NCBI RefSeq assembly: GCF_026230175.1
Contig: NZ_CP104208.1
Span: forward strand, 2,790,001-2,854,000
Length of the DNA stretch: 64,000 nt
DNA from: Desulfovibrio mangrovi
GTDB taxonomy: Bacteria > Desulfobacterota > Desulfovibrionia > Desulfovibrionales > Desulfovibrionaceae
Direction of reading: 5' to 3'
Position 1 is the stretch's first letter; the number at the start of each line of letters is the position of its first letter. Both the position numbers and the translations under genes were made by a program. The notes under the pieces are model-generated. The model saw only the letters and a list, made by a program, of their open reading frames with translations, searched no databases and was not told where the DNA came from. Of the stretch, positions 15,270 through 57,816 are shown piece after piece.

Positions 15270-17090
<1,821 letters not shown>

Positions 17091-36305: not shown

Positions 36306-36574
36306 GACGACCTCCTCCTGTTCACGGTTTCGGGTGCTGCCCGCTCCATGCCCTTTCAGTATCCCTGAGATGCTCCCCCTGCGTGAACACGACATGTCGG
36401 CTGCGTTACGGAAGCCGCAAAGTGCGGTGAAATGGCGGTGACCGACGGGCGACAACAGCGTTACACGGGTCCAATGGCTCCCGATGAAAGCATCAGGAAT
36501 GGCAGAAAATGCCTGTTCTTTGTCATTGCAGACAAGACGCGATGCGCTATGCTGCATTCAAAGGGAGGCCCCGC

Positions 36575-37558
36575 ATGAAACAAGACGTTGTCGTACTGCT
36601 CTTTGAACAGGCCCTGAGTCTGGACTTTTCCGGCCCCGTTGAGGTGCTGGAGGCAGCCACGCGCCTGCTTGACGCACAAGGCCGCGGGAACAAGGGCTAT
36701 ACCCTGCGCTATGCCGGTCTGCAGACCGGCCCCGTGCGCCTGAGCTGCGGTTTGCGCGTGCATGCCGACATCACGCCGGAGGACGCCGCAGGCTGCGGCA
36801 TGCTGCTCATACCGGGCGGTTTCGGCGTAGACAGCTTGTGCAAGGACAAGGTGGCCCTGTCCCGTCTGACAACGCTGGCACACAGTGCAGGCAGGGTGGT
36901 CTCAGTATGCAACGGAGCCTTCATTCTTGCACAAACCGGCCTGTTGCAGGGCAGGCAGGCCACCACGCACTGGTACATGGCAGAGGACTTTGCCGCACAG
37001 CACCCTGCCGTGCGCCTGCACACGCAGGCCCTGTATGTGCAGGATGGCCACATATACACCAGCGCAGGAGTCACGGCAGGTATAGACCTCGCCCTGAGCC
37101 TTGTTGAAGCAGATTTCGGCCATGCCCTTGCCATGCAGGTTGCCCGCATGCTGGTGCTCTACCTGCGGCGCCCCGGCACGCAGCAGCAGTTCAGTGACCC
37201 GCTGGAAGCACAGGGCAATGCGGGCACACGATTCCGCCATGTATACGAATGGGCCCAGGCCCATCTGCAACACGCACTCACCGTGGAAGAACTGGCTGAT
37301 GTGGCTGGCATGAGTCCGAGAAATTTCGCGCGCGTATTCACCAGAACAACCGGAAGGACTCCCGCTAAATTCGTGGAAGAACTGCGACTCATGCGGGCCC
37401 GTGAACTGCTGGAAGCCGGAGAAAGCAACCTTGATCACGTTGCGGAACGTGCCGGTTTCGGGCGGGAGGAACGGCTGCGCAGAGCCTTTGCGCGGAGCCT
37501 CGGCATCTCACCCAAACAGTATCTGTCGCATTTTGCGGCAAAGGAGCGCTCATCATGA
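36575..37558 (+). CDS. GlxA-type transcriptional regulator (DJ-1/PfpI + AraC HTH)
   Basis: A 327-residue protein with an N-terminal DJ-1/PfpI amidotransferase-like domain (about 1-185, nucleophile-position Cys112 in VCNGAFILAQ) and a C-terminal AraC/XylS double helix-turn-helix (about 215-320, ending in LGISPKQYLSHFA). Family members activate catabolic or stress genes, with the PfpI domain sensing a ligand. The ATG follows GGGAGG by six bases. Its stop overlaps the ATG of the next gene (ATGA), so the two are co-translated. Confidence 0.92.
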   Translation: MKQDVVVLLFEQALSLDFSGPVEVLEAATRLLDAQGRGNKGYTLRYAGLQTGPVRLSCGLRVHADITPEDAAGCGMLLIPGGFGVDSLCKDKVALSRLTTLAHSAGRVVSVCNGAFILAQTGLLQGRQATTHWYMAEDFAAQHPAVRLHTQALYVQDGHIYTSAGVTAGIDLALSLVEADFGHALAMQVARMLVLYLRRPGTQQQFSDPLEAQGNAGTRFRHVYEWAQAHLQHALTVEELADVAGMSPRNFARVFTRTTGRTPAKFVEELRLMRARELLEAGESNLDHVAERAGFGREERLRRAFARSLGISPKQYLSHFAAKERSS

Positions 37559-38148
37559 CGCTGACATACGGACTGTATATCTTTGACGACGTGGCCAAGC
37601 TGGACTTTGTTGGTCCGCACGAAGTGTTCTGCGCCTCGGCCCACCTGTTGCAATCCGGCAGGGTAATCACTGTTGCGGAATCCGCCGCCCCCGTTACCAC
37701 GGCCTTCGGCATGCGGGTTATTCCCGACCACGCCTTTGACGACGCGCCCCCCGTTGACGTGCTGCTCATCCCCGGCGTGGTGACGCCGGAGGCGGCCCGC
37801 CGCAGCGAACGCGCCATGCAGTGGATACGGGATACGGCAGCCAAGGCACGCTTTACCACTGCGGTCTGCACGGGTGCCCTCATACTGCAGCGGGCCGGCC
37901 TGCTCGCAGGGAAACGGGCCACCACCCACTGGCAGTTGGTGCCTGAACTGGAAAAAGCCGCAGACGTGACCGTGCTGCCGGATATGCGCTACGTACGCGA
38001 CGGCAACATCGTCACCTCGCAGGGTGTTTCCGCAGGCATAGACATGGCCCTGTGGCTGGTGGGCCAGCTGCACAGTCCCGACCATGCCCGCGAGGTGCGC
38101 AAACTGCTGCAATACGATCCTGCCCCGCCCTATACTGCGGAAGTATAG
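37555..38148 (+). CDS. DJ-1/PfpI family protein
   Basis: A 197-residue stand-alone DJ-1/PfpI domain with Cys105 in the nucleophile elbow AVCTGALILQ and the acidic residue near 17-22 (LDFVGPHEVF). It is the same domain type as in the upstream regulator but without a DNA-binding part. Proteins like this include isonitrile hydratases, glyoxalase III/deglycases and chaperones; sequence alone does not decide. The four-base overlap with the regulator gene suggests a shared ligand or pathway. Confidence 0.88.
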   Translation: MTLTYGLYIFDDVAKLDFVGPHEVFCASAHLLQSGRVITVAESAAPVTTAFGMRVIPDHAFDDAPPVDVLLIPGVVTPEAARRSERAMQWIRDTAAKARFTTAVCTGALILQRAGLLAGKRATTHWQLVPELEKAADVTVLPDMRYVRDGNIVTSQGVSAGIDMALWLVGQLHSPDHAREVRKLLQYDPAPPYTAEV

Positions 38149-38254: not shown

Positions 38255-38977
38255 TTACAGCAGGTTCCCCGCAGCGCCCCTGTCCCTGAGAAAGGAACGC
38301 AGAAACATGATGTGCTGCACCATGTACCGTCTGGCACCGTTGGCATCCCTGCTGACAATGGCGTCCAGAATTTTGTAATGGTGCTGCTCAATGATGAGAT
38401 GGACATCCCGATCCTCATAGAGCTTGTCGTGCAGGCTGCTGATACTCTCGAACATGTAGCTGTAGAAATGACGGATCAGGTCGATGTACACGGAGTTATG
38501 CGTGGCCAGCGCTATGCCGATGTGGAACCTGATGTCGGAATCCCGTGAACGCGCGCTGTCCGGCTCCCCGTCCATGAGGTCGGCAAGGGCATCCCGCAGA
38601 TAGGCTATGTCGCGCTCATCGGCCTTTTGTGCGGCAAGAGCCACACCGTGGCTCTCCAGCCCGATACGCACTTCCATAAGCTCATCCAGAGACGCGCTTG
38701 AAGGCAGCATGATATGAGGGAACGGATTGTGCGGTGCCTGCGCATGGGGAAGCGCCACAACGCAGCCTTTCCCTCTGCGGCGGTCCACGTAGCCCTGTCT
38801 TGCGAGCGTGACCACAGCCTTTTCCGCGGCGTATCTGCTGACATTCATCAACTCGGCAAGCCGTCTGACAGAGGGAAGCTGTTCACCGGGCTTCAGATCG
38901 CCACGAAAGATGCTGTCCCGCAACTGCGCAAAGACCACTTCGGCCCCGCAAGGGCTCACCCGTCCTCCGCAAGACAT
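38255..38977 (-). CDS. FadR/GntR-family transcriptional regulator
   Basis: A 240-residue regulator with an N-terminal GntR winged helix (about 15-80; QLPSVRRLAELMNVSRYAAEKAV) and a C-terminal FCD ligand-binding domain (about 98-225) with the metal-binding His/Asp pattern. FCD regulators respond to carboxylic acids such as lactate, pyruvate or glycolate, which fits sulfate-reducer metabolism. The ATG at 38977 follows GGAGGT by seven bases; an upstream extension is non-coding. The neighbouring genes do not reveal its target. Confidence 0.9.
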   Translation of the reverse strand: MSCGGRVSPCGAEVVFAQLRDSIFRGDLKPGEQLPSVRRLAELMNVSRYAAEKAVVTLARQGYVDRRRGKGCVVALPHAQAPHNPFPHIMLPSSASLDELMEVRIGLESHGVALAAQKADERDIAYLRDALADLMDGEPDSARSRDSDIRFHIGIALATHNSVYIDLIRHFYSYMFESISSLHDKLYEDRDVHLIIEQHHYKILDAIVSRDANGARRYMVQHIMFLRSFLRDRGAAGNLL

Positions 38978-39183
38978 AACCTCACCTCCAGCTTCCCTCT
39001 TCCATATCGGAATTCCCGATGCTGCTTCTTGGCAAAGGCCAAACAGCACGGGGGCCACACAAGCCTTTCCGCTCTGCCTACACTGCCGTCACCAGATTGT
39101 ACAGTCAAACAGCACTTTTTCTAACGGACTCGGGGTGTTACCCCGGAACAAGGCAACATGAAGAAAACCTTGGCAACCGCAGA

Positions 39184-40200: not shown

Positions 40201-40289
40201 GCGGCCTTGGTAGGACATTTGAGACAGCGAGGCAAGAGGATGGCAGGGGCCCCGGAACAGCCTTGCGGAAGCAGGCTTTTCTACTGATT

Positions 40290-40338
40290 CAGGAATTTTC
40301 CTGCCGGACAGGAAAAACATTCTTGCCGGACAGGAAAA
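40290..40338 (+). promoter_or_regulatory. Array of CAGGAA/TTCCTG half-sites upstream of frdC
   Basis: Five alternating half-sites: CAGGAA (40290), TTCCTG (40298), CAGGAA (40309), TTCTTG (40320), CAGGAA (40331). The last four are spaced 11 bases apart, one helical turn. The block CCGGACAGGAAAA is directly repeated 22 bases apart. The array lies about 100-145 bases before the predicted sigma-54 start site, the usual place for activator binding. Confidence 0.6.
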
Positions 40339-40408
40339 AAAGTGATCAATCAACCAGAAATCTGCCGGAAAGCTAGATTTTTCGGGGATCGATGAGCTTG
40401 AGACTATT

Positions 40409-40424
40409 TGGCACAAACTGTGCT
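40409..40424 (+). promoter_or_regulatory. Candidate sigma-54 promoter of the frd-fum-malic operon
   Basis: TGGCAC-N5-GTGCT: the GG at 40410-40411 and GC at 40422-40423 are separated by exactly ten bases, as required at -24/-12. One mismatch to the consensus in the -12 box. Predicted start near 40435, giving a leader of about 165 bases. Confidence 0.6.
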
Positions 40425-40465
40425 TTCTTAGATCCGCGTCCACTGGGATTGTTGTTGCGTGAGCC

Positions 40466-40489: not shown

Positions 40490-40600
40490 ATCACATATGG
40501 AGACTGGTTGTTTGTTGCCGTCCGGAGTCGGAGTGCCCCGAAGCCGGATTCAATCGGTTGGTCATGTTGACCCATCACCCGATATGGAGGAGTCGTTCAA

Positions 40601-41254
40601 ATGAGTTTACACAACGTGACGCTTCATGTGCCCCCGAAGAACAAGCTTTCGGGCCAACTGGATGTCCTGATGATGGTTTCCGGCTTTCTGCTTGCCGTAT
40701 TCGTCGGCATGCACATGCTGTTCGTGGGCAGCGTCATCCTCAGCCCCTCGCTGATGAACGGGCTGGCATGGTTCTTTGAAGAGCTGTACCTCGTGCAGAT
40801 CGGCGGCCCGATCATCCTGCTGGTCATGGTTGCCCATTTCATCCTCGGCGCCCGCAAGATGCCCTTCCGCCAGAAGGAATTCATCGCTTTCCGCGCCCAT
40901 TCCAAGATGATGCACCACACCGACACCACCCTGTGGCTGGTGCAGGTTGCCTCCGCCATCATCATTCTGGTCATGGCGAGCATCCACATCTACACCATGC
41001 TCGACACCCTGCCCATCACGGCGGCCAAGAGTGCCGCCCGCATCCAGCATGGCAGCTGGATGCCCTTCTACATCGTTCTGCTTGCCGCTGCGGCCATCCA
41101 CATCGTGATCGGCCTGTACCGCATCGGTGCCAAGATCGGCTTCATCACCCGCGACAACCGCCCCGTATACCGCAAGTACATGGTCTACCTGCTCATCGCG
41201 GCTGCGGCTGTCAGCTTCCTGACCCACGTTCGCCTTTCCCTTCTGACCATCTAA
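40601..41254 (+). CDS. frdC: Fumarate reductase / succinate dehydrogenase cytochrome b subunit
   Basis: A 217-residue membrane anchor with five hydrophobic helices, like the di-haem subunit of Wolinella-type quinol:fumarate reductase. Candidate axial haem ligands are His38, His79, His129 and His167. Their spacing (41, 50 and 38) is close to that of Wolinella FrdC. It would connect menaquinol oxidation to fumarate reduction, or the reverse. The ATG follows GGAGGAG. It is the first gene of an apparent six-gene unit, and the frdC-A-B order also matches Wolinella. Confidence 0.93.
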   Translation: MSLHNVTLHVPPKNKLSGQLDVLMMVSGFLLAVFVGMHMLFVGSVILSPSLMNGLAWFFEELYLVQIGGPIILLVMVAHFILGARKMPFRQKEFIAFRAHSKMMHHTDTTLWLVQVASAIIILVMASIHIYTMLDTLPITAAKSAARIQHGSWMPFYIVLLAAAAIHIVIGLYRIGAKIGFITRDNRPVYRKYMVYLLIAAAAVSFLTHVRLSLLTI

Positions 41255-41266
41255 GAGGAGTACCAC

Positions 41267-43186
41267 ATGCAGACCATATATACTGATCTTCTCTGCATCG
41301 GCGCCGGCCTTGCAGGTGAACGTGTGGCTGTGGAAGCAGCCATGGCAGGATTCAACGTCATATGTCTTTCCATCGTACCTCCCCGCCGCTCCCACTCCTC
41401 CGCCGCACAGGGCGGCATGCAGGCTGCCCTCGGCAACGCGGTGATGGGCAAGGGCGATAGCCCCGACGTGCACTTTGCCGACACCGTCAAGGGCTCTGAC
41501 TGGGGCTGTGACCAGGAAGTGGCCCGTATCTTTGCCGACACCGCACCCATCGTCATGCGCGAAATGGCCCACTGGGGCGTTCCGTGGAACCGCGTTGTTG
41601 CCGGTACCCATACCTATTACAAGGGTGGTAAGCCGTTCGAGGCGGAGGAAGCCGCCGACAAGCACGGCCTTATCCATGCCCGCGCCTTTGGCGGCACTGC
41701 CAAATGGCGCACATGCTACACCGCGGACGGCACCGGCCGCTCCGTTCTGAATACGCTGGACACCAAGTGTCTGCAGTACGGCGTGGAAATCCATGACCGC
41801 ACCCAGGCAGAAGCCCTCATTCACGACGGCGAACGCTGCCTCGGCGCCATCGTGCGCTGCCTGAAGACCGGCGAACTGCGTGCCTACCTCGCCAAGGCGA
41901 CCCTTATCGCCACCGGCGGTTACGGCCGCATCTACCGCGCCACCACCAACGCCATCATCTGCGACGGCGGCGGTCAGATCATCGCACTGGATACCGGCCT
42001 CGTGCCCATGGGCAACATGGAAGCCGTTCAGTTCCACCCCACCGGCACCGTGCCCACCGACATTCTAGTGACCGAAGGCTGCCGCGGCGACGGCGGCACC
42101 CTGCTGGACGTGAACGAATACCGCTTCATGCCCGACTACGAGCCGGAAAAGGCCGAACTGGCCTCCCGCGACGTTGTGTCCCGCCGCATGATCGAACACA
42201 TCCGCAAGGGCTTCGGCGTACAGAGCCCCTACGGCGAGCACCTCTGGCTGGATATCCGCCACCTCGGCGTGAAGCACATCACCACCAAGCTGCGTGAAGT
42301 ATACGACATCTGCACCAACTTCCTCGGTGTTGACCCCATTCACCAGCTCATCCCCGTACGTCCCACCCATCACTACTCCATGGGCGGCGTCCGCGTGGAC
42401 AAGACCGGTGCCGCATACGGCCTGAAGGGCCTGTTCTCCGCCGGCGAATCCGCCTGCTGGGACATGCACGGCTTCAACCGTCTGGGCGGCAACTCCCTTG
42501 CGGAAACCGTTGTGGCCGGTTCCTACATCGGCAAGCAGGTGGCCCAGTTCCTGAAGGGCTACGAAGTGGACTTCAAGTCTTCCGCCATCCGCGATGCCGA
42601 AGCCAAGATCGCCGAACGCATCAAGAACATCACCACCAGCGCCAAGGGCCGTGAAAACTGCTTCCAGCTGCGTAACGAGATGCAGGATGTGATGATGGAG
42701 CACGTGGGCATCTTCCGTAACGGCAAGGATCTTCAGGCCGGTGTGGACAAGCTGCAGGCCCTGTACGAACGCTCCATGAACATCGGGCTGCAGGCCCCCA
42801 CCAAGGGCTTCACCCCTGAAATGTCCATGGCCCTGCGCGTTCCCGGCATGCTCAAGCTGGCCCTGTGCACCGCCTACGGCGCGCTGCAGCGTACAGAGTC
42901 CCGCGGCGCGCATACCCGCGAAGACTACCCCGAACGTAACGACCGCGACTGGCTGAACCGTACTCTCGCCTACTGGAAGGATGGAGACACCCTGCCCACC
43001 CTGAAGTACGAAGAAGCCTCCCCCTACTACGAACTGCCCCCCGGCGACCGCGGCTACGGCGGCGGCAAGATCATTCCTGCCGAACTGCCCGCAGAAAAGT
43101 TCGTGGTGCCCGGCAAGAGTGCACCTACTGAAGCGCCCTCTGAAGCACCCGCGGCCAAGCCCGCCAAATCCGAGAAGAAGAAGTAA
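41267..43186 (+). CDS. frdA: Fumarate reductase flavoprotein subunit
   Basis: A 639-residue catalytic subunit that reduces fumarate to succinate or the reverse. FAD is bound by IGAGLAGE near residue 11 and covalently by His43 in HSSAAQGG. Substrate-site motifs include FHPTGTVPTDILVTEGCRGDGG near 250 and RPTHHYSMGGVRVD near 365, and RLGGNSLAE near 405. The last 20 residues form an Ala/Pro/Lys-rich tail that is not part of the family fold. GAGGAG site upstream; 12 bases after frdC. Confidence 0.96.
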   Translation: MQTIYTDLLCIGAGLAGERVAVEAAMAGFNVICLSIVPPRRSHSSAAQGGMQAALGNAVMGKGDSPDVHFADTVKGSDWGCDQEVARIFADTAPIVMREMAHWGVPWNRVVAGTHTYYKGGKPFEAEEAADKHGLIHARAFGGTAKWRTCYTADGTGRSVLNTLDTKCLQYGVEIHDRTQAEALIHDGERCLGAIVRCLKTGELRAYLAKATLIATGGYGRIYRATTNAIICDGGGQIIALDTGLVPMGNMEAVQFHPTGTVPTDILVTEGCRGDGGTLLDVNEYRFMPDYEPEKAELASRDVVSRRMIEHIRKGFGVQSPYGEHLWLDIRHLGVKHITTKLREVYDICTNFLGVDPIHQLIPVRPTHHYSMGGVRVDKTGAAYGLKGLFSAGESACWDMHGFNRLGGNSLAETVVAGSYIGKQVAQFLKGYEVDFKSSAIRDAEAKIAERIKNITTSAKGRENCFQLRNEMQDVMMEHVGIFRNGKDLQAGVDKLQALYERSMNIGLQAPTKGFTPEMSMALRVPGMLKLALCTAYGALQRTESRGAHTREDYPERNDRDWLNRTLAYWKDGDTLPTLKYEEASPYYELPPGDRGYGGGKIIPAELPAEKFVVPGKSAPTEAPSEAPAAKPAKSEKKK

Positions 43187-43198
43187 GGGGAGGTCAAC

Positions 43199-43987
43199 AT
43201 GTCTCGCAGACTCCATATCGAAGTATTCCGCTACAATCCGCTGGATCCCGATTCCGTACCCCACATGCAGTCGTTCTACGTGAACGAGTACGACTCCATG
43301 ACCCTGTTCATCGCCCTGAACATCATCCGCGAAGAACAGGACCCCAGCCTGCAGTTCGACTTCTGCTGCCGTGCAGGCATCTGCGGTTCCTGCGGCATGG
43401 TCATCAACGGCCGTCCCGGCCTTGCCTGCCATACCCAGACCCGCGACCTGCCCGAACACATCGTGCTGCACCCGCTGCCGGTGTTCAAGCTCATCGGCGA
43501 CCTCTCCGTGGACACCGGCACCTGGTTCCGCGAAGTGGGCAAGAAGATCGAGGCATGGGTGCATTCCGATGACACCGCCTTCGACTCCAAGGCCGAAGAA
43601 TCCCGCATGGAAAACGCCCTTGCCGAACAGATCTTCGAACTCGACCGCTGCGTGGAATGCGGCTGCTGTATCGCAGCCTGCGGCACCGCCCGCATGCGTG
43701 AGGACTTCCTCGGCGCAGCCACCATCAACCGCGTGGCCCGCTTCTACATCGACCCCCGCGACCAGCGTTCCGAAGACGACTACTACGACGTCATCGGCAA
43801 CGATCAGGGCGTGTTCGGCTGCATGGGCCTGCTGGGTTGTGAAGACGTCTGCCCCAAGAAGATCCCGCTGCAGGACCAGCTCGGCATCATGCGCCGCATG
43901 CTCGCCATCAACTCCGTCAAGGGCATCCTGCCCAAGGGCATTCTGGACAAACTGAAGCACAAGGGTTGCTGCCATGAAAAGCATTAA
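43199..43987 (+). CDS. frdB: Fumarate reductase iron-sulfur subunit
   Basis: A 262-residue electron-transfer subunit linking the haem subunit to FrdA. It carries the [2Fe-2S] motif CRAGICGSCGM followed by a distal Cys (near 60-80), the [4Fe-4S] motif CVECGCCIAAC (near 158) and a third set CMGLLGCEDVCPKKIP (near 208). The extra Cys in the second motif is also found in Wolinella FrdB. It overlaps the fumarase alpha gene by 14 bases, implying translational coupling. Confidence 0.95.
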   Translation: MSRRLHIEVFRYNPLDPDSVPHMQSFYVNEYDSMTLFIALNIIREEQDPSLQFDFCCRAGICGSCGMVINGRPGLACHTQTRDLPEHIVLHPLPVFKLIGDLSVDTGTWFREVGKKIEAWVHSDDTAFDSKAEESRMENALAEQIFELDRCVECGCCIAACGTARMREDFLGAATINRVARFYIDPRDQRSEDDYYDVIGNDQGVFGCMGLLGCEDVCPKKIPLQDQLGIMRRMLAINSVKGILPKGILDKLKHKGCCHEKH

Positions 43988-44810
43988 GGCGCAGGACATA
44001 CATGACGCCGTGGTCGGCATCGTCATGTCCGCCGCCCGCTATCTGCCCGAAGATGTACGCAAGGCGCTGAAGACCTCGCTGGACGGCGAGACTTCCGACT
44101 CCGCCCGCGAGATTCTCGGCCAGCTGCTGGAAAACGCCGACCTCGCCGCCGAAAGCGGCCTGCCGCTCTGTCAGGACACCGGCGTGGGCGTCTTCTTCGT
44201 GGAACTCGGCGACGAAGTGCACGTGGAAGGCAATCTGGTGGAGATCATCAATGGCGCCATGGTGGAAGGGTATCAGAAGGGACTGCTGCGCAAGTCGCTG
44301 TGCCACCCGCTGACCCGCAAGAACACCGGCGACAACAGCCCTGCCGTGATCCACGTGGACATCGTGCCCGGCGACAAGCTGAAGATCAAACACATGGCCA
44401 AGGGCGGCGGTTCCGAAAACATGTCCCGCTGCACCATGCTCACCCCCGCACAGGGCTGGGCAGGCATCAAGGAATTCGTGGTACGCCGCATGGCCGAAGC
44501 CGGTCCCAACCCCTGCCCCCCCACCATCGTGGGCGTGGGCATCGGCGGCACCTTCGACCTGGCTCCCACGCTGGCAAAGAAGGCCCTGTTCCGTCCCGTG
44601 GGCGTACGTAATCCCGATCCGGAAATCGCCACCATGGAACAGGAACTGCTCGACGCCATCAACGATCTGGGCATCGGCCCCATGGGCCTCGGCGGCAAGA
44701 CTACCAGTCTGGACGTGAAGATCGAGATGCGCCCCTGCCATATCGCCAGCCTGCCGCTGGCCGTGAACGTGCAGTGTCATTCTTCCCGCATCAAGGAGGT
44801 TGTTCTGTAA
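43974..44810 (+). CDS. Class I fumarate hydratase, alpha subunit
   Basis: A 278-residue subunit of the iron-sulfur (class I, two-subunit) fumarase, which interconverts fumarate and malate. Motifs seen are LPLCQDTGVGVFFV near residue 63, GGGSENMSR near 140-150 and GVGIGGTFDLA near 183. The [4Fe-4S] ligand cysteines lie in these regions. The gene starts inside frdB and its stop overlaps the beta-subunit ATG by one base, so stoichiometric synthesis is likely. L(+)-tartrate dehydratase is the related alternative; the frd and malic-enzyme context favours fumarase. Confidence 0.93.
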   Translation: MKSIKAQDIHDAVVGIVMSAARYLPEDVRKALKTSLDGETSDSAREILGQLLENADLAAESGLPLCQDTGVGVFFVELGDEVHVEGNLVEIINGAMVEGYQKGLLRKSLCHPLTRKNTGDNSPAVIHVDIVPGDKLKIKHMAKGGGSENMSRCTMLTPAQGWAGIKEFVVRRMAEAGPNPCPPTIVGVGIGGTFDLAPTLAKKALFRPVGVRNPDPEIATMEQELLDAINDLGIGPMGLGGKTTSLDVKIEMRPCHIASLPLAVNVQCHSSRIKEVVL

Positions 44811-45355
44811 TGGCTACCTACAACCTGACCACCCCCCTGCGCGATGAAGACCTGCTCAAGCTGAAGGCCGGCGACGTGGTCAAACTCTCGGGCACCATCT
44901 ATACCGCCCGCGACGCAGCCCACAAGCGCCTGTGCGATCAGCTGGACAAGAGCGAGAAGCTTCCCTTCGAGCTGCAGGGTGCCGTGATCTACTACGTAGG
45001 CCCGAGCCCCGCTCCCGAAGGCAGACCCATCGGTTCCGCCGGTCCCACGACCAGCTACCGCATGGATACCTACGCCCCACGTCTGCACAGCCTGGGCGTG
45101 AAGGCGAGCATAGGCAAAGGCAAGCGCAACGCGGCTGTCCGCGAGGCTCTGCAGAAATACGTGGGCGTGTATTTCGGCGCCACCGGCGGTGCGGGAGCCC
45201 TGCTCTCCCAGTGCATCACCGCGGCCGAAGTGATTGCCTACGATGATCTCGGGCCGGAAGCGGTGCGCAAACTCACCGTAAAGGACTTTCCGTTGCTGGT
45301 GGTGAATGACGCCCACGGCAACGAGCAATACGCAAAACCCAACTACGATTTGTAG
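44810..45355 (+). CDS. Class I fumarate hydratase, beta subunit
   Basis: A 181-residue C-terminal-type fumarase subunit with GPTTSYRMDTYAPRLHSLGV near 77-96, the GGAGALLSQCI segment near 124 and NDAHGNEQY near the end. It completes the active site with the alpha subunit. The ATG at 44810 follows AAGGAGG; the longer frame upstream is non-coding in the alpha gene. Malic enzyme follows 31 bases later. Confidence 0.93.
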   Translation: MATYNLTTPLRDEDLLKLKAGDVVKLSGTIYTARDAAHKRLCDQLDKSEKLPFELQGAVIYYVGPSPAPEGRPIGSAGPTTSYRMDTYAPRLHSLGVKASIGKGKRNAAVREALQKYVGVYFGATGGAGALLSQCITAAEVIAYDDLGPEAVRKLTVKDFPLLVVNDAHGNEQYAKPNYDL

Positions 45356-45386: not shown

Positions 45387-46709
45387 ATGGCTCTGTATAC
45401 CAAGCAAGAAGCGCTCGACTATCACGAACTGCCCCGCCGCGGTAAGGTGGAAGTCGTCCCGGTCAAGCCCTGCAATACCCAGAAGGACCTTTCCGTCGCC
45501 TACTCCCCGGGTGTGGCGGAAGCCTGCATGGCCATTCACGCCGACCCCTCGATGGTTGACGTGTACACCGGTCGCGCCAACCTCGTGGCCGTTGTCTCCG
45601 ACGGCACCGCGGTGCTCGGTCTCGGCAACATCGGCCCCAAGGCCGGCAAGCCGGTTATGGAAGGCAAGGGCATTCTGTTCAAGACCTTCTGCGATATCGA
45701 CGTATTCGACATCAACCTTGACGTGAAGAGCGCTGACCAGCTCATCGACATCGTCAAGGCCATGGAGCCCACCTTCGGCGGTATCAACCTTGAAGACATC
45801 AAGGCCCCCGAATGCTTCTACATTGAAGAAACTCTCAAGCGTGAAATGAACATTCCCGTGTTCCACGATGACCAGCACGGAACCGCGGTCATCTCCGGCG
45901 CGGGTCTGATCAACGCCTGCGAGATCACCAACCGCAAGATCGAAGATCTGAAGGTTGTCGTTGTAGGCGCCGGCGCAGCCGGTATCGCCTGCGCCAACTT
46001 CTACGTCCAGCTCGGCGTGGACCGGAAGAACGTCTTCATGTTCGACTCCCGCGGTCTCATCCACAAGGGACGCGGCGGCATGAACAAGTACAAGGAAGCC
46101 TTCGCTCAGGACAAGGACTACGGCTCTCTCGCAGAATGCCTGAAGGGTGCCGACTGCTTCCTCGGTCTTTCCGTGAAGGATCTCCTGAACAAGGAAATGG
46201 TTCAGGCCATGGCCAAGGACCCGATCATTTACGCCATGGCCAACCCCGATCCGGAAATTCCGTATCCCCTTGCCAAGGAAGCCAGCCCCAACTGCATCAT
46301 GGGTACCGGGCGCTCTGACTTCCCCAACCAGGTGAACAACGTTTCCGGCTTCCCGTACATCTTCCGCGGTGCTCTGGACGTACAGGCCACCGAGATCAAC
46401 GAGGCCATGAAGGTTGCCGCCGCACGGTCCCTCGCTGCTCTCGCCAAGGAACCCGTACCGAGCGAAATCTGCGACGCCTACGGCGTGAAGGAACTGAAGT
46501 ACGGTGTGGACTATGTAATTCCCAAGCCCCTGGATTCCCGAATCCTGGAATGGGAAGTACCCGCCGTTGCCAAGGCCGCCATGGAAACCGGCGTTGCCCG
46601 GGCTCCCATTGCCGACCTCGACGCATACACCAAGCAGCTTAAGGAACGTGTTGCCGCGTCCCGCAAGCGCATCAATGCATACGTCAAGAGCTACGGCTTC
46701 GAGTTCTAG
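45387..46709 (+). CDS. Malic enzyme (NAD(P)-dependent malate dehydrogenase, decarboxylating)
   Basis: A 440-residue short-form malic enzyme converting malate to pyruvate and CO2 with NAD(P)H formation, or the reverse. It has [13 protein letters not shown] near residue 37, [14 protein letters not shown] near 72, the metal/substrate motif [11 protein letters not shown] near 160 and the nucleotide fold [12 protein letters not shown] near 192. No phosphotransacetylase domain is attached. Coenzyme preference is not certain. The ATG at 45387 follows GAGGAG. It closes the succinate-fumarate-malate-pyruvate route of this operon. Confidence 0.95.
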
Positions 46710-46749: not shown

Positions 46750-46855
46750 TCCCCTCCCCCTCAACCCCTGCAACCTGTGGTCCGTGAGGGACCGTCACCC
46801 CCCGCTGGCCTGTGACCGATCAACGTGTTTAACGTGTTAAATGAGGATACAACAC

Positions 46856-48196
46856 ATGAAACGATTGATTCCGATTCTCGGTCTGGCTCTCATGCTGGTG
46901 CTTGTTGTTGCCGGAGTATGCTTCGCTGCAGATGCTCCGCCAGACCCCACCAAAGCTTATCTGACTCTCGGTATTCTCGCTGTTGCCGCAGTGCTGTTTT
47001 TCACCGAAGTCGTTCCGCTGCCCGTTACCGCCATGCTGGTACCCATTGCTCTCAGCATATTCAAGATCGTGGATGCCAAAGCCGCGTTCTCGAACTTTGG
47101 TAACGTCTGGGTAATCATCTTCATGGCCATGTTCATCGTGGGTGAAGCCACCTTCATCACCGGCTTTGCCGACAAGGTGGGCAAGGCGACCGTAAAGATG
47201 GCCGGTGGTAGCGAGAAGCGCCTGCTGGTGCTCTCCGTCGCCGTTATCGGCATCCTTTCCGCCTTCCTGTCCAACACCGGCACCACCGTTGTGGCAATTC
47301 CCATGATCATGGGCATGTGCGCCACCGCGGGCATCCGCCCCAGCAAGATCCTGATGCCCGTGGCCTTTGCCTCGTCGCTGGGCGGCACGATCACCCTGGT
47401 GGGCACCCCGCCCAACGGCATCATCAACTCCATGCTGCAGAAGATGGGCCCTGCGGGCATTCAGCCCTTCGGCTTCTTTGAATTCGGCTACTTCGGCGTT
47501 CCGCTGCTGCTCGTGGGCATTCTCTTCTACGCCACCATCGGCGCAAAGTTCCTGCCCAACACCCATGCGGAGTGCACCCTTGAGGAACAGGCCGCTCCCA
47601 AGCCGCAGCGTCCCGAAAAGATGTGGTGGGCCCTCGGCATCTTCGTCTTCGTTGTTGCCGCCATGGCCTCCAACTTCCTGCCGCTGGTCACCGCCGCCAT
47701 GCTGGGCGCCTGCCTTGTGGTCATCACCGGCTGTATGACCATGAAGGAAGCCTTCAAGGCCATTGACTGGACCACCATCTTCCTGTTTGCGGGCATGCTC
47801 TCCATGAGCACCGCCATGGACAAGTCCGGCGCCGCTTCCCTGATCGCCAAGAGCGTGGTAAGCCATGTGACCGACCCGTACATGCTGCTGGCGGTTTGCT
47901 GCGCCCTGACTGCAGTCATCACCAACTTCATGTCCAACACCGCCACTGCCGCCCTCATGGCTCCGCTGGCTATTCCGATTGCCGTACAAAGCGGCATCAG
48001 CCCGCTTCCGCTCGCCATGGGTATTGCAATGTCGGCTTCGGCATGTTTCCTTACGCCCGTGGCTACCCCGCCCAACACCATCGTGCTTGGGCCCGGTAAT
48101 TATAACTTCATGCATTATGTAAAGGCAGGCTGGCCTTTGCAGATCATAACCTTTATCATGTGTGTTGTATTAATCCCCATGATCTGGCCCTTCTAG
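46856..48196 (+). CDS. DASS/SLC13-type sodium-coupled anion transporter
   Basis: A 446-residue membrane protein starting with a signal-anchor-like helix (about 3-24), then about eleven hydrophobic segments. Family features are the two SNTxT-like motifs: LSNTGTTVVAIPM near 140 and MSNTATAALMAPLAIPIA near 360, plus TPPNTIVLGPG near the end. The family moves di- and tricarboxylates or sulfate with sodium. Its position after the C4-dicarboxylate genes suggests succinate, fumarate or malate uptake; sulfate is the alternative in a sulfate reducer. Start chosen after GAGGA. Confidence 0.88.
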   Translation: MKRLIPILGLALMLVLVVAGVCFAADAPPDPTKAYLTLGILAVAAVLFFTEVVPLPVTAMLVPIALSIFKIVDAKAAFSNFGNVWVIIFMAMFIVGEATFITGFADKVGKATVKMAGGSEKRLLVLSVAVIGILSAFLSNTGTTVVAIPMIMGMCATAGIRPSKILMPVAFASSLGGTITLVGTPPNGIINSMLQKMGPAGIQPFGFFEFGYFGVPLLLVGILFYATIGAKFLPNTHAECTLEEQAAPKPQRPEKMWWALGIFVFVVAAMASNFLPLVTAAMLGACLVVITGCMTMKEAFKAIDWTTIFLFAGMLSMSTAMDKSGAASLIAKSVVSHVTDPYMLLAVCCALTAVITNFMSNTATAALMAPLAIPIAVQSGISPLPLAMGIAMSASACFLTPVATPPNTIVLGPGNYNFMHYVKAGWPLQIITFIMCVVLIPMIWPF

Positions 48197-48242: not shown

Positions 48243-49091
48243 ATGGCGAACACAATTCTCAAGAAAGAGCAGTTGATTCCCGGGCAGACCAGCAAGCTGG
48301 TTATTGATGCGCCGCATATCGCCGCCAAGGCGAAACCGGGGAACTTCGTTATCCTCCGCGTTTGCGAGAAGGGTGAACGAATTCCGCTGACCATTGCGGA
48401 CACGGATCCTGAAAACGGCACCATCACCATCGTGTATCTGGTTCTGGGCAAGAGTACGGCTCTGCTGGAAGAACTGAACGAAGGAGACGACATCCTCGAC
48501 CTGTGCGGACCTCTGGGTAAAGCTACCCATATCCACAAGGGCGGAACTGTCATCTGCGTAGGCGGCGGCACCGGCATTGCAGCCATGCATCACATCGCCA
48601 AGGGACACCATGAGGCCGGCAACCATGTTGTGGCCATCATCGGTGCACGCAACAAGGATCTGCTGCTCTTTGAAAAGGAATTGAAGAGCTTCTGTCCCGA
48701 AGTGCTGATCTCCACCGACGACGGCAGTTACGGCCGCAAGGGCCTTGTGACGGAACTGCTGAAGGAACGGCTGGAGCAGGACAAGTCCGTCATCGAAGTG
48801 GTGGCCGTTGGCCCCGTTCCGATGATGGCCGCAGTTTCCAAGACCACCGAACCCTTCGGTGTTCCCACCACGGTCAGCCTCAACTCCATCATGGTGGATG
48901 GTGTGGGCATGTGCGGCGCCTGCCGCGTGACCGTTGGCGGCAAGACCAAGTTCGCCTGCGTGGACGGCCCCGAATTCGACGGCCACCAGGTGGACTTCAT
49001 GGAACTGCGGCAGAGGCTGGCGGCCTTCTCGTCCATGGAAAAGGAATCCTACGAACATCACTGCAGGTGTAAGTGCAATGACAAAAAGTAA
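48243..49091 (+). CDS. nfnA: NADH-dependent ferredoxin:NADP+ oxidoreductase, small subunit
   Basis: A 282-residue FAD/NAD(P)-binding protein of the dihydroorotate dehydrogenase electron-transfer type. It has an N-terminal FAD barrel, the nucleotide motif VGGGTGIAAMH near 103 and a C-terminal [2Fe-2S] region GMCGACRVTVGGKTKFAC. With NfnB it forms the bifurcating transhydrogenase linking NADPH, NADH and ferredoxin; older annotations call it sulfide dehydrogenase beta. Its end overlaps nfnB by 14 bases. Confidence 0.9.
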   Translation: MANTILKKEQLIPGQTSKLVIDAPHIAAKAKPGNFVILRVCEKGERIPLTIADTDPENGTITIVYLVLGKSTALLEELNEGDDILDLCGPLGKATHIHKGGTVICVGGGTGIAAMHHIAKGHHEAGNHVVAIIGARNKDLLLFEKELKSFCPEVLISTDDGSYGRKGLVTELLKERLEQDKSVIEVVAVGPVPMMAAVSKTTEPFGVPTTVSLNSIMVDGVGMCGACRVTVGGKTKFACVDGPEFDGHQVDFMELRQRLAAFSSMEKESYEHHCRCKCNDKK

Positions 49092-50502
49092 AAAAGAAAT
49101 TGCCGCCCGCGTTCCCATGCCCAACCAGCCGCCGGATGTGCGCAGGAACAACTTTGAAGAAGTTGCGTTGGGCTACACCAAGGAAATGGCAATCGAAGAG
49201 GCCAAGCGCTGCCTTCAGTGCAAGAAGCCCAAATGCGTGAAAGGCTGCCCTGTTGAGGTGCCCATTCCCGACTTCATCTCCCATCTGGCAAAAGGCGACG
49301 TGGAAAAGGCCTACGCGGTCATCAAGTCCACCAACAGCCTGCCCGCCGTATGCGGTCGCGTCTGTCCGCAGGAGATCCAGTGCGAGGGAGCGTGCATTCT
49401 CAACGCCAAGGAACAGCCCGTAGCCATCGGCCGTCTCGAACGCTACGTTGCGGACGAGTACATGTACATGGACGCGTGCGATCTCATCTCCGCTAAACCT
49501 GAATGTCCGTTCATCGACCCCGAAAGAAAGGTCGCATGTATCGGTTCCGGTCCCTCCAGCCTTACGGTAGCCGGCTATCTGGCCTCCCGCGGCTGCAAGG
49601 TGACCGTTTTTGAGGCTCTGCACGAGGTAGGCGGAGTTCTGGTATATGGCATTCCGGAATTCCGCCTGCCCAAAGAAAAAATCGTAGCCAAGGAAGTAGG
49701 CGCCCTGAAGGAACTTGAAGTGGAGTTCGTCACCAACTACGTTGGCGGCAAGACCTTCAACATCAAGGAACTGTTCGATCAGGGCTACAAGGCCGTGTTC
49801 ATCGGCGTGGGCGCAGGCTTGCCCAGATTCCTGCGCATCCCCGGCGAGAACTTCATCGGCGTATTCTCCGCCAACGAGTATCTCACCCGCGTGAACCTCG
49901 GTCGTGCCTACGATTTCCCCAACTACGACACCCCGATTATACGAGGTCGCAAGGTCACCGTATACGGTGGCGGAAACGTGGCCATGGACGCGGCGCGCAC
50001 AGCGCAGCGCCTTGGTGCCGAATCCGTTCACATCGTCTACCGCCGCACCGCGGACGCTATGCCTGCGCGTCATGAAGAGATCGAACATGCCGTGGAAGAA
50101 GGCATCCATCTCGAGTGTCTGGCCAACCCCATCGAGTTCCGTGGAGACGAAAAGGGTAACCTTACGTCTGTCCTCCTCCAGCGCATGGAACTCGGAGAGC
50201 CCGACGCATCCGGTCGTCGTTCCCCCAAGCCCGTGGAGGGCGACACCTACGAGCTGGAAACCGATCTCGCAGTCATTGCCGTTGGCACCAACCCCAACCC
50301 GGTGCTGCTGGAAAACGAGCCCGATCTGAAGCTCAACAAATGGGGCTACATCGAAGTGGATGAAGCCACCGGCGAGACCTCCATTCCCAATACCTATGCC
50401 GGCGGTGACATCGTCACCGGTGCGGCAACGGTCATCCTTGCCATGGGCGCGGGCCGCCGCGCCGCCAAGGAGATAGCCCGCCGTTTTGGTATTGAGGAAT
50501 AA
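49078..50502 (+). CDS. nfnB: NADH-dependent ferredoxin:NADP+ oxidoreductase, large subunit
   Basis: A 474-residue glutamate-synthase-small-subunit-like flavoprotein. N-terminal iron-sulfur motifs are CLQCKKPKCVKGCP and CGRVCPQEIQCEGAC. The bifurcating FAD motif GSGPSSLTVAGYLASRG follows near 155, and the NADPH motif GGGNVAMDAARTAQRLG near 302. Paired with nfnA this identifies NfnAB rather than glutamate synthase, since no large GltB subunit lies nearby. Such an enzyme would balance NADPH from malic enzyme with NADH and ferredoxin used by the Flx-Hdr complex downstream. Confidence 0.9.
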   Translation: MTKSKKEIAARVPMPNQPPDVRRNNFEEVALGYTKEMAIEEAKRCLQCKKPKCVKGCPVEVPIPDFISHLAKGDVEKAYAVIKSTNSLPAVCGRVCPQEIQCEGACILNAKEQPVAIGRLERYVADEYMYMDACDLISAKPECPFIDPERKVACIGSGPSSLTVAGYLASRGCKVTVFEALHEVGGVLVYGIPEFRLPKEKIVAKEVGALKELEVEFVTNYVGGKTFNIKELFDQGYKAVFIGVGAGLPRFLRIPGENFIGVFSANEYLTRVNLGRAYDFPNYDTPIIRGRKVTVYGGGNVAMDAARTAQRLGAESVHIVYRRTADAMPARHEEIEHAVEEGIHLECLANPIEFRGDEKGNLTSVLLQRMELGEPDASGRRSPKPVEGDTYELETDLAVIAVGTNPNPVLLENEPDLKLNKWGYIEVDEATGETSIPNTYAGGDIVTGAATVILAMGAGRRAAKEIARRFGIEE

Positions 50503-50739: not shown

Positions 50740-52065
50740 ATGCCCGATACCCCCGCACACGAGCCCAAGAAGCTGCCCCGGCAGTCAGGCTCAACCTTCA
50801 AGGACAAGGTAGCGGAACTCCTGCCCGAGGGCGGAAACCTTAACCTGTGCCTCACCTGTGGCGCCTGTTCCGCGGGATGCCCCGCCACGGGTCTGGAAGG
50901 CATGGACCCCAGAAAGTTCCTGCGTATGGCCGCTCTCGGCATGGATGAGGAACTGACCACCACCCCGTGGGTATGGATGTGCACCATGTGCACCCGCTGT
51001 GTGCATGTTTGCCCCATGCGCATCAACATTCCCCAACTTGTGTATCAGGCCCGCAAAAGCTGGCCCGAGGACAAGAAGCCTCGCGGCATCGTGAACTCCT
51101 GCCATCAGGCCCTGAAGACCGAAGGCTTCAGCGCCATGGGCGCAAGCTCCGAAGACTTCCGCTTCGTGGTGGAAGACATGGTGGAGGAAGTGCGCGAATC
51201 ACAGCCCGGTCAGGAAAACCTTGAAGCGCCCGTGGACAAGCATGGTGCCGAGTACTTCCTGAACCAGAACTCCCGCGAGCCGGTGACCGAACCCGATGAA
51301 ATGGTTCCGCTCTGGAAGATCCTGAACAAGGCCGGATGCGACTGGACCTACGGCTCCGTCGGCTGGGCGGCAGAAAACTACTGCCTCTTTGCTGCGGACG
51401 ACGAAAACTGGGAACGGATTGTCCGGACCAAGATCAAGGCAGTGGAGGATCTTGGCTGCAAGTACTGGCTGAACACGGAGTGAGGCCACGAACTTTACGC
51501 AGTCCGGTTCGGATTGCAGAAATTCAACATCAAGACCGACGTCCAGATCGAATCCATCATCCGTCTCTACGCAAAGTGGGTACGCGAGGGCAAACTGCCC
51601 GTGAATTCCGACTGGAACAAGGATGGCATCAAGTTCACCGTGCAGGACCCCTGCCAGCTGGTCCGCAAGACCTATGGCGATCCTGTTGCGGATGACTTGC
51701 GATATGTGGTGAAGGCCGTTGTAGGTGAAGAAAACTTCATCGACATGTGGCCCAACAAGTCCAACAACTATTGTTGCGGCGGCGGTGGCGGTTTCCTCCA
51801 GTCCGGCTTCCCGGACGCGCGCCGGTACTACGGCAAGCGCAAGGATGAGCAGATAAAGAATACCGGTGCGCCGTATGTAATCGCACCCTGCCACAACTGC
51901 CACTCACAGATTCACGATCTCTCCGAATACTATGGCGGCGGGTACCACGTGGTGCACCTGTGGACCCTCATTGCGCTTTCGCTGGGCATGCTCGGTGAAA
52001 ACGAACGCGAGTATCTCGGTGCAGATCTGTGCGACTGCGGTATGTGCAGCATGGATGACGAATAA
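50740..52065 (+). CDS. HdrC-HdrB fusion, heterodisulfide-reductase-type subunit, selenoprotein
   Basis: A 441-residue protein read through an in-frame TGA (51481-51483, residue 248). The N-terminal part is HdrC-like with two [4Fe-4S] motifs (Cys37/40/43/47 and Cys81/84/87/91). The C-terminal part is HdrB-like with a full CCG motif (Cys305-X39-Cys345-Cys346-X37-Cys384-X2-Cys387). The TGA falls where related proteins have the Cys of an E-C-G-H motif, and the text continues U-G-H-E-L-Y in frame. A SECIS-like hairpin follows. Role: passes or uses electrons at the non-cubane cluster site, reducing a disulfide or partner protein. Fusion of C and B and Sec use are both notable. Confidence 0.87.
51481..51517 (+). 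promoter_or_regulatory. Sec codon and SECIS-like element in hdrCB
   Basis: TGA (51481-51483) followed by a 7-base stem GCAGTCC / GGATTGC (51499-51505 and 51511-51517) closed by a GGTTC loop. The loop is 22 bases after the TGA, within the distance used by bacterial SelB. The loop holds the GU expected for SelB binding. Confidence 0.8.
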
Positions 52066-52112
52066 CGTTCCGCCGTCCGGAAAACGGCGGAAGGCACACC
52101 AGAGAGGAAGCT

Positions 52113-55100
52113 ATGAACGCAGCGACCACGTCGAAACTGTCTGATGCCCCTCCCGGTACTTCCGGCCCTTCCCAAGGTGCCGTTATGGTGGTTGGTGGCG
52201 GTATTGCTGGCATGCAATCCGCCATTGACCTCGCCAATTCGGGATTCAAGGTATATCTGGTTGAAAACAAGTCCGGCATCGGCGGGGTCATGGCCCAGCT
52301 GGCCAAAACCTACCCAACAAACGACTGCGCACTCTGAATACTCTCACCCAAGTTGGTAGAGTGCGGTCGGCACTTGAACATCGAACTCCTGCCCCTCACC
52401 GAGGTGCAGAAGGTGGAAGGCGAAGAAGGCAACTTCACGGTGCACCTGCGTCAGGCTCCGCGATTCATTGATCCGGAAAAATGCATAGCCTGCGGCGAGT
52501 GTTCCAGAAAATGCCCCAAGAAGATTTCCAACCCCTTCAACGCCGGTCTGGACACACGCAAATCTGTCCACATCATCTACGACCAGACCGTCCCCCTGAA
52601 GTACGCCATTGACGAGGAAAGCTGCATCTACCTGCAAAAGGGCAAATGCGGTGCCTGCGCCAAGATCTGTCCCGCCGATGCGGTGAACTTCAATGACAAG
52701 CCCCGCGAGTTCAGCGTGAACGTGGGTTCCGTGGTGCTCGCCCCCGGCATCAAGACCTTCGACCCCACGTCCTTTGACAGCTACGCCTATTCCCGCATTC
52801 CGGACGTCATCACCAGTCTGGAATACGAACGCCTCCTTTCCGCATCCGGCCCCTGTCAGGGCCATGTGCTGCGCCCCTCAGACAGCACGGAACCCAAGCG
52901 CATAGCATGGCTGCAGTGCGTGGGTTCACGCGGCAACAACAAATGCGACAACGACTACTGTTCCAACGTCTGCTGCATGTACGCGCTCAAGCAGGCGCTG
53001 GTCACGGCGGACCACGCCCACGGCGAGGGCCACGATCAGGCCATCTTCTTCATGGACGTGCGCGCCCATAACAAGAGCTTTGAACAGTATTACAATCAGG
53101 CCATGCACAAGGGCGTGCGCATCCTGCGTGCCCGCCCCCACTCCTTCCTGCCCGGCGAGGGCAACAAGGGCGTGCGGGTGGAATACGTGGGCGAAGCGGG
53201 CGATCCGCACTCGGAACACTTCGACATGGTCGTGCTCTCCGTGGCGCTTGAAGCCCCTGCGGAGGCAAAGAAGCTCGCGGAAACCTTCTCCATTGATCTG
53301 GACAAGTGGAACTTCGCGGACACCGACCCCTTCGACCCCGTGCGCACCTCGCGCAAGGGCGTGTACGTCTGCGGCGGGTTCCAGGAACCCAAGGACATTC
53401 CCCGCTCGGTCATGGAAGCCAGCGCCGCAGCCAGCGCCGCCACGGCCTCACTCGCACCGGCGCGCGGCACCCGCACCGTGGACCGACAGGTGCCGGAAGC
53501 CATCAACGTGTTCGGCGAAGCGCCCCGCATAGGCGTGTTCGTCTGCGCCTGCGGTATCAACATCTCCAGCGTCATCGACGTGCATGGGGTTGCCGACTAT
53601 GCCCGCACCCTGCCCGGCGTGGTGCATGTGGAAAACAACATGTTCTCCTGTTCGCAGGACACGCAGGTGGCCATTGCGGAAGTCATCCGCAAACACAACC
53701 TCAACCGCGTTGTGGTTGCGGCCTGCACGCCCCGCACGCACGAACCGCTGTTCCGCGAAACGCTGGAAGCGGCCGGTCTGAACAAATACCTCTTCGCCAT
53801 GGCGAACATCCGCAACCACGGTTCGTGGGTACACGCCACCGATCCGGAAGGCGCCACCCGCAAGGCCAAGGATCAGGTCCGCATGGCCGTGGCCAGCGCC
53901 CGCCATCTTGCCCCGCTCAAGGAAGTGACGCTCGGCGTCACCCCCTCTGCCCTCGTGGTAGGCGGCGGCGTCTCCGGCATGACCGCCGCGCTGGGCATCG
54001 CCGAACAGGGCTTTGAGGTGCATCTGGTGGAAAAGGAAGCGGAACTCGGCGGCAACGCCCGCAAACTGCGCGTGGCGCAGGGCCGTTTCGCGGTAGCTCC
54101 CTACCTTGACGAGCTTGAAAAGAAGGTACGCGCACACGACCGCATCTCCCTGCATACGCAGACCGCCATTGAGGATGTGGACGGCTTTGTGGGCAACTTT
54201 GTCACCCGCCTGAAGGAAAACGGCGCGGAACAGGAAATCCGACATGGCGCCGTGGTGCTGGCCACCGGCGGCGTGGGCCACAAGCCTGAAGGTCGCTACG
54301 GTTTCGGCTCGCACCCCATGATCATGACGCACCAGCAGATAGACGCCGGATTCATGGATGGTTCCATCAAGCCGGAAGCCCTGCAAAGCGTGGTGTTCAT
54401 CCAGTGCGTCGGCTCCCGCGAGCCGGAACGCCCGTACTGTTCGCGCGTGTGCTGCACGCACACCGTGGAAAGCGCCCTGCACATCAAGCGCGCCAATCCC
54501 GACGCCCGCGTGACCGTGCTCTACCGCGACATGCGCACCTACGGCCAGCGCGAGCTGCTCTACAAGGAAGCCCGCGCCGCAGGCGTCATCTTCTCCCGCT
54601 TCCGCCTGAGCGAACGCCCCCGGGTGAGCGTGGTTGACGGCGTAATCAACGTGACCTTCAAGGATCATGTCCTTCAGGAAGAGCTGACCGTGGAAGCCGA
54701 CATGCTGGGTCTTGCCTCGGCCATTGTCGCGCCGGACGTGAACGATCTGGCGCAGATGGTCAAGGCCACCCTCAGCGACGAAGGCTGGTACGTGGAAGCC
54801 CACTCCAAGCTGCGCCCCGTGGACTTTGTCACGGACGGCGTGTTCATGGCCGGTCTGGGGCACTATCCCAAGCCGCTTGAAGAATCCGTGACACAGGCGC
54901 GTGCCGCCGTCTCGCGCGTTGCCACCGTGCTCAGCCGCACGGAGATGACGCTGGCGGGCACCGTGGCCACCATCAACAAGGCCAAGTGCGTCGGTTGCGC
55001 GGTGTGCTGGAATGTATGCCCGTACAACGCCATCAGCCCCGACGAGAAGGGGTTCGCCGAAGTGAACGAGGCACTCTGCAAGGGTTGCGGCTTATGCGCC

Positions 55101-55184
55101 GCGGCCTGCCGTTCCGGCGCGCCGGATCTTCGCGGCTTCACCACCAGCGACATCATGGCGCAGGTTTCCGCCATGCTCGGTTAG
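52113..55184 (+). CDS. hdrA: HdrA, tandem two-FAD form, selenoprotein
   Basis: A 1023-residue protein read through an in-frame TGA (52335-52337, residue 75). The first half has FAD motif GGGIAG near 29, then the HdrA motif TNDC-A-L-U-I-L-S-P-K-L with Cys72 and Sec75, and [4Fe-4S] motifs at Cys124/127/130/134 and around Cys171-186. From about residue 470 a second HdrA unit begins ([13 protein letters not shown]), with another FAD motif GGGVSG near 615 but no TNDC-type cluster. Two ferredoxin motifs end the protein (near 959 and 989). HdrA carries the electron-bifurcating flavin. Normal HdrA is about 650 residues, so this is a duplicated form. Confidence 0.88.
52335..52362 (+). promoter_or_regulatory. 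Sec codon and SECIS-like element in hdrA
   Basis: TGA (52335-52337) followed by ACTCT-C-ACC pairing with GGT-AGAGT (52340-52348 and 52355-52362), one bulged C, and a CAAGTT loop. The loop starts 11 bases after the TGA, slightly closer than usual, and contains GU. Confidence 0.68.
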
Positions 55185-55211
55185 CCACGAGCTGACGCAA
55201 GGAGAGTTTGC

Positions 55212-55760
55212 ATGAAAGAGTTGGAACTGTACGAACCCCGCATCGTGGCATTCTTCTGTCACTGGTGCTCCTACGGTGCAGCCGACCTCGCAGGCGTGAG
55301 CCGCATGGAGTATCCCGCAAGCTTCCGCGCCGTGCGCATTCCCTGCACGGGCCGCATGAGCCCCAAGTTCATCCTCCATGCCCTGCGCCAGGGCGCGGAC
55401 GGCATATGGGTTTCCGGCTGCCACCCCGGCGACTGCCACTACGGCACCGGCAACTACCATTCCCGCCGCAGGCTTGAGCTGTTCAAGAACATGCTGGAAT
55501 ACATCGGCATCGAAAAGGACCGCATCCACTTCTCGTGGATATCCTCCGCAGAGGCCGAAAAATTCCAGCAGATGGCCATCAGCGTTGTGGAATCCGTGCG
55601 CAAGCTCGGCCCCAACACCAAGCTGGTCAAGGACCTGTGCAACGACTGCATACCGCCCGTTCCCACCTGCAACTACATGAACGAGTGCTACGAAGATCTT
55701 GAAGCAATCGCGGAAGCAGGGGGCCTCAACAAGCCGATCGGCGGGAGGGACGCAATATGA
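55212..55760 (+). CDS. flxD: MvhD/FlxD-type [2Fe-2S] electron-transfer protein
   Basis: A 182-residue MvhD-family protein with the cysteine sets FFCHWCSYGAADLAG (near 15-20), PCTGRM and GCHPGDCHYGTGNYHSRRR (near 70-88). MvhD normally connects a hydrogenase to HdrA. Here no hydrogenase genes are present, and the linked flxCBA genes make it FlxD, passing electrons from the NADH-oxidising Flx subunits to HdrA. A clear AAGGAGAG site precedes the ATG. It overlaps flxC by four bases. Confidence 0.9.
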   Translation: MKELELYEPRIVAFFCHWCSYGAADLAGVSRMEYPASFRAVRIPCTGRMSPKFILHALRQGADGIWVSGCHPGDCHYGTGNYHSRRRLELFKNMLEYIGIEKDRIHFSWISSAEAEKFQQMAISVVESVRKLGPNTKLVKDLCNDCIPPVPTCNYMNECYEDLEAIAEAGGLNKPIGGRDAI

Positions 55761-56737: not shown

Positions 56738-56746
56738 GAGGCCGCC

Positions 56747-57814: not shown

Positions 57815-57816
57815 CC

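Follow-up and report, generated by a model that had tools for sequence, protein, structure and literature searches.

The 64,000-nucleotide stretch of Desulfovibrio mangrovi DNA analyzed here (the window) holds a set of genes for C4-dicarboxylate metabolism, and the region before the first of them, frdC, raises the question of what switches them on and through which sites. The first-pass annotation had described five CAGGAA/TTCCTG-type half-sites, four of them at 11-base intervals, ahead of a -24/-12 element, and had taken this layout for the target of an enhancer-binding protein. The genes concerned are as follows.

40601..41254, + strand: frdC, fumarate reductase cytochrome b subunit
41267..43186, + strand: frdA, fumarate reductase flavoprotein
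43199..43987, + strand: frdB, fumarate reductase iron-sulfur subunit
43974..44810, + strand: fumarase alpha (PF05681)
44810..45355, + strand: fumarase beta (PF05683)
45387..46709, + strand: malic enzyme
46841..48196, + strand: DASS-family dicarboxylate/anion symporter
48243..49091, + strand: nfnA-like transhydrogenase subunit, starting 46 bp past the transporter gene
48934..50502, + strand: nfnB-like subunit, open frame (true start probably further in)

The nfnA-like gene probably belongs to the same transcription unit as the transporter gene, and an Hdr/Flx-type electron-transfer cluster (50740-58656) lies downstream of nfnAB. Elsewhere in the window, at 36509-38148, are two neighboring DJ-1/PfpI genes, one of them fused to an AraC-type HTH.

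Predicted operators and promoter before frdC

The half-sites are where they had been reported, starting at 40290 (CAGGAA), 40298 (TTCCTG), 40309 (CAGGAA), 40320 (TTCTTG, degenerate) and 40331 (CAGGAA), with exact 11-base steps between the last four. As successive half-sites point in opposite directions, they are most simply described as two 17-bp dyads (inverted repeats) 22 bp apart. NtrC sites are 6+5+6-bp dyads some 100 bp ahead of a -24/-12 promoter, and the five-membered array, whose sites are real, is better read as two dyads in this style plus a weak third. Strict helical phasing on one face of the DNA, the accompanying idea, is not conserved, as the spacing of the dyads varies from 21 to 24 bp across genomes.

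40279..40295, + strand: weak third dyad, uncertain, TTCTACTGATTCAGGAA (9/12), containing the fifth half-site (40290)
40298..40314, + strand: predicted activator dyad 1, TTCCTGCCGGACAGGAA (TTCCTG-CCGGA-CAGGAA; 12/12), a dyad being present here in 17 frd promoters
40320..40336, + strand: predicted activator dyad 2, TTCTTGCCGGACAGGAA (TTCTTG-CCGGA-CAGGAA; 11/12), a second dyad being present at 21-24 bp in 17/17 frd promoters
40341..40356, + strand: AGTGATCAATCAACCA, possible IHF-type bending site, identical in the three closest genomes
40407..40425, + strand: sigma-54 -24/-12 promoter, TTTGGCACAAACTGTGCTT (GG at 40410-40411, GC at 40422-40423), with boxes invariant in orthologues

The starts of the two dyads lie 111 and 89 bp ahead of the -24/-12 element, whose exact GG-N10-GC spacing was confirmed (core element 40409-40424; TGG and TGC boxes present). 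Transcription would be expected to start near 40435, and the GGAGGAG ribosome-binding site of frdC is at 40586-40592. The genome carries one rpoN gene (PF04552) and encodes about 37 sigma-54 activators. The weak third dyad scores equally in G006 (G000 being the window's own genome and the other G-numbers the genomes compared), was not recovered in G003 and is poorly conserved. Downstream of the dyads, AGTGATCAATCAACCA shares with the IHF consensus (from PMC3897727) only its WATCAA half, and a bend protein at the conserved ATCAATCAA element is plausible. Directly before frdC, the 5' leader (40531-40600) is strongly conserved in the three closest genomes, with up to 20/20 identical columns; an Rfam search of the region gave no RNA family above threshold, and the leader folded no better than shuffles.

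Dyads scoring at least 11/12 occur in the 64-kb window at these two places only, and simulated windows of the same dinucleotide make-up contain 0.2 of them per 64 kb. Across the 3.95-Mb genome, the pattern TTCYTGN5CARGAA is found in four places, two of them in the frd promoter, and its reversed control is also found in four, so that the rare feature is the close pair and not the single dyad. A genome-wide dyad scan for other targets yielded two further dyads only, at control level, and the 11-mer CCGGACAGGAA, put forward earlier as the motif for a genome search, proved uninformative (14 hits versus 8 for the reversed control). Pairs of dyads 19-26 bp apart were absent from 60 simulated windows of 64 kb, and a strict double-dyad pattern searched in 247 genomes found three frd promoters only, with 0 control hits, all of which argues against chance repeats. 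Terminator hairpins would be in line with the ability of TTTTCCTG-N5-CAGGAAAA to form a hairpin and with the activator gene of congeners, which ends just upstream, yet no gene ends into the region in G000 and the upstream gene points away; we consider it extremely improbable that the inverted repeats are either terminators or chance repeats.

Conservation of the layout and the predicted activator

Conservation upstream of orthologous frdC, on which the first-pass annotation had made its reading depend, extends to 17 genomes in five genera, where two dyads 21-24 bp apart stand at a fixed distance from TTGGYAY-N6-TGCT. Across these promoters the dyads start at -109 to -113 and -87 to -91 from TGG; TTGG, A and TGCT are invariant in 17/17, and each upstream region outscores all 2000 shuffles of itself. 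Over the 34 sites together, T2, G15 and A16 never vary, and C3 and A13 hardly do. In an alignment of the three closest genomes (G000, G003 and G006), the dyads, AGTGATCAATCAACCA and the promoter stand out as better conserved than the sequence around them, with 16-19/20 identical columns over 40291-40350 and 13/20 at 40411-40430, against 0-10/20 in most neighboring blocks. Six further congeners have two frdC genes each, one of which carries a dyad pair at 21-bp spacing together with a TTGGCAT-N6-TGCT promoter, and the remaining promoters of the 17 are those of G019, G233, G062, G231, G232, G054, G059 and G060. Several congeners have a weak second dyad (8-9/12), and one congener, G004, with an orthologous frd operon and an FrdC that is 79% identical, has neither the dyads nor the sigma-54 element.

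Palindromes are common as repressor sites, and a GntR-family gene lies 1.2 kb away, which would suit a repressor or one-component operator (e.g., of the GntR/FCD protein encoded at 38258-39058) unrelated to sigma-54; equally, the dyads might serve the divergent glycosyltransferase gene upstream of frd, which adjoins frd in G006. Both proposals have to contend with the fixed distance between the dyads and the -24/-12 element in 17 promoters. Moreover, the GntR and glycosyltransferase genes were not found in the fetched frd neighborhoods of G003 (for the latter gene, the fetched part of the contig) and of other genera, and the dyads persist there, which makes an operator of this kind very improbable.

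A candidate activator comes from the gene neighborhood of the operon. In 13 of the 17 genomes, genes for an NtrC-family sigma-54 activator and a single-Cache hybrid histidine kinase adjoin the operon or lie a few kilobases off, and such a pair is found beside or a few kilobases from a dyad-bearing operon in six congeners and four other genera. Where congeners have a second frd operon, and likewise in G019, this operon is immediately preceded by a gene for an NtrC-family regulator with a Fis-like HTH end, which follows a gene for a hybrid histidine kinase with an sCache_2 sensor. Full-length kinase orthologues, sensor included, with the regulator alongside are present away from the operon in G000, G003 (where the regulator gene is cut by the contig end) and G006. 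In G000 the regulator, of 483 aa, is encoded at C1 2665483-2666934 on the minus strand, with the kinase gene directly upstream at 2666912-2668846 on the same strand, and the pair is unlinked to the frd operon, about 160 kb from it. No operators were found near the kinase and activator genes of G000, G003 and G006.

The pair and the dyads also occur together genome by genome. A first sample had dyads in 10/10 genomes with the pair and in 0/11 genomes of the same family without it (p = 3e-6 if independent, related genomes not being independent events), and further genomes with the pair had dyads in 6/6. The kinase sensor was searched in 288 genomes of the family, and gave a group of strong hits; on inspection, a full kinase with a linked regulator was found in 16 genomes, 16/16 with dyads before frd. 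The pair was not found in G004, which also lacks the dyads and promoter, and no kinase orthologue was detected in G232, where promoter and dyads are present (assembly 87% complete). We rejected G149, G238, G246, G252, G256 and G270 as carriers of orthologues, since they have a sensor-like domain only, with no linked activator match or dyads. Pattern hits in other genomes (e.g., G018, G041 and G174) were treated as chance because the pair is absent and they look coding.

The regulator has a receiver domain and a sigma-54 AAA+ domain, with GAFTGA or close variants in every activator orthologue. All complete orthologues share the helix S-G-[LV]-SQSR-[LF]-YALLKK, and none of the 36 other activators in this genome contains the recognition helix SQSR-[LF]-YALLKK. 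The Fis-type HTH (PF02954) is barely above cut-off in the G005 orthologue and is not reported for the window genome's own protein, their C-termini aligning closely. It is not NtrC proper (NR-I), given an NCBIfam ntrC score of 345 against a cut-off of 558.6. The kinase has sCache_2 as its best sensor match and a receiver domain of its own; we rejected DctB as its identity, since the Cache domain is single and not double, a receiver is present and the DctB fold match is far lower. Among solved folds, the kinase sensor model (pLDDT 86.5) comes closest to single-Cache domains of chemoreceptors, including one whose structure was solved for carboxylic-acid recognition. Single-Cache receptors are known to bind L-malate and related C4 acids in P. 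aeruginosa and C2-C3 acids in P. putida (PMC5795001). An external C4-dicarboxylate is the likely signal of the kinase.

The arrangement is typical of a sigma-54 enhancer, its tandem dyads lying within the 80-150 bp or so before the promoter that are usual for an NtrC-type activator. We conclude with high confidence that a C4-dicarboxylate disproportionation regulon (frdCAB-fumAB-malic enzyme-DASS transporter and nfnAB) has its upstream activating sequence and sigma-54 promoter in this region and would be activated by the NtrC-family regulator of this pair; at the level of sequence, this is supported by the sites, their conserved geometry, the association with the activator pair, GAFTGA and the recurrence before nfnAB. 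The first-pass proposal of an enhancer-binding-protein target governing C4-dicarboxylate genes thereby gains a 17-genome record and a matching two-component activator. Alternatively, the sigma-54 promoter might be real and the dyads bound by another of the roughly 36 enhancer-binding proteins, as could be argued from the number of activators encoded and from the distance between the assigned one and frd in G000. We regard this as improbable, however: the assigned pair neighbors the dyad-bearing operon in five genera and accompanies it from genome to genome, its recognition helix was seen in no other activator examined, and the dyads are found again at nfnAB, next to the kinase gene.

We infer binding, activation, looping, start site and signal for the NtrC-family regulator and its kinase as follows. 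The periplasmic Cache domain of the kinase would most likely answer malate, fumarate or another external carboxylate. Regulator dimers would bind the two 17-bp dyads, and the phosphorylated regulator on the dyads would nucleate an AAA+ oligomer. A DNA loop (about 75-110 bp, with 68-72 bp intervening), possibly aided by a bend at ATCAATCAA, might then bring the oligomer to sigma-54 polymerase at -24/-12, where its ATP hydrolysis would open the promoter.

nfnAB and the reach of the proposed regulon

In six genomes (G019, G233, G054, G059, G060 and G231), nfnAB is divergent from the kinase gene and, as a separate unit, has its own dyads (at about -110 and -88) and sigma-54 element, the dyads being weak in G019 (10/12 and 9/12). 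In G000, G003 and G006, nfnAB instead follows directly behind the transporter gene. Since nfnAB has dyads of its own when separate and lies behind the operon otherwise, it appears to be linked to the one activator either way. The nfnAB promoter of G231 (L200, about 16530-16680) is a longer array, with four dyad-like sites in 21-23 bp steps. A dyad and sigma-54 element also precede the kinase gene of G233, which suggests autoregulation of the kinase in that genome.

A diverged, paralogous activator/kinase pair stands beside a fumarase and an FrdA-like gene in G262 (C31:15000-30000; L210 3751-9552). Its activator is 47% identical, with the helix SGLSQSRLYALLKT and GSFTGA. Of the two dyads at the locus, 22 bp apart, one is strong and one weak, and a consensus sigma-54 element is also present. 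The operator code is seemingly reused by this pair.

We lean, by a little, toward an undescribed regulon of sulfate reducers in which a single-Cache kinase sensing external C4-dicarboxylate acts on one activator and so couples fumarate reduction, malate oxidation and NfnAB. By the same tentative account, nfnAB would have switched between a unit of its own under dyad control and the frd operon, never leaving the regulon, and the G262 paralogue would reuse helix and double-dyad layout for another fumarase operon. That nfnAB has been shuffled within the regulon speaks for a physiological connection between malic enzyme and Nfn transhydrogenase, and the pairing of helix and operator may allow other regulons of this activator group to be read from sequence.

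Relation to known sigma-54 systems

No prior report of this regulon was found in the open-access literature searched. For fumarate/malate disproportionation in sulfate-reducing bacteria (cf. alaskensis G20; PMC4215793), our analysis names a regulator, an operator and a promoter that can be tested. The sigma-54 map published for D. vulgaris Hildenborough, from the same bacterial order, comprises 36 regulons in which likewise one activator serves one to few target operons (PMC4641369); sigma-54 control of frd is absent from it, no fumarate reductase, fumarase or malic enzyme being among its listed target functions. The text of a response-regulator survey (PMC3333781) does not mention frd or malate.

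The orp promoters of D. vulgaris, which need IHF between the activator site and the sigma-54 site, have their orp1 activator site near -131 and the needed IHF site near -79 (PMC3897727). The layout here is similar, with dyads near -130 and -108 and ATCAATCAA near -81, except that the IHF-like site is half of the consensus only and thus a candidate.

With the NtrC family, the assigned activator has in common the receiver, the AAA+ domain with GAFTGA, a probable C-terminal HTH and the 17-bp dyad geometry, and from NtrC itself it differs in operator sequence and targets. DctB/DctD is a membrane kinase with a Cache-type sensor and a sigma-54 activator acting on dicarboxylate genes, and the pair described here would work alike. 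In contrast to DctB/DctD, it has a single Cache_2 sensor and a hybrid kinase with its own receiver, and its predicted targets are fumarate reductase, fumarase, malic enzyme, the DASS symporter and nfnAB in place of dctA. The regulator pair is a new example of a well-known sigma-54 switch, distinct both from NtrC itself and from DctB/DctD.
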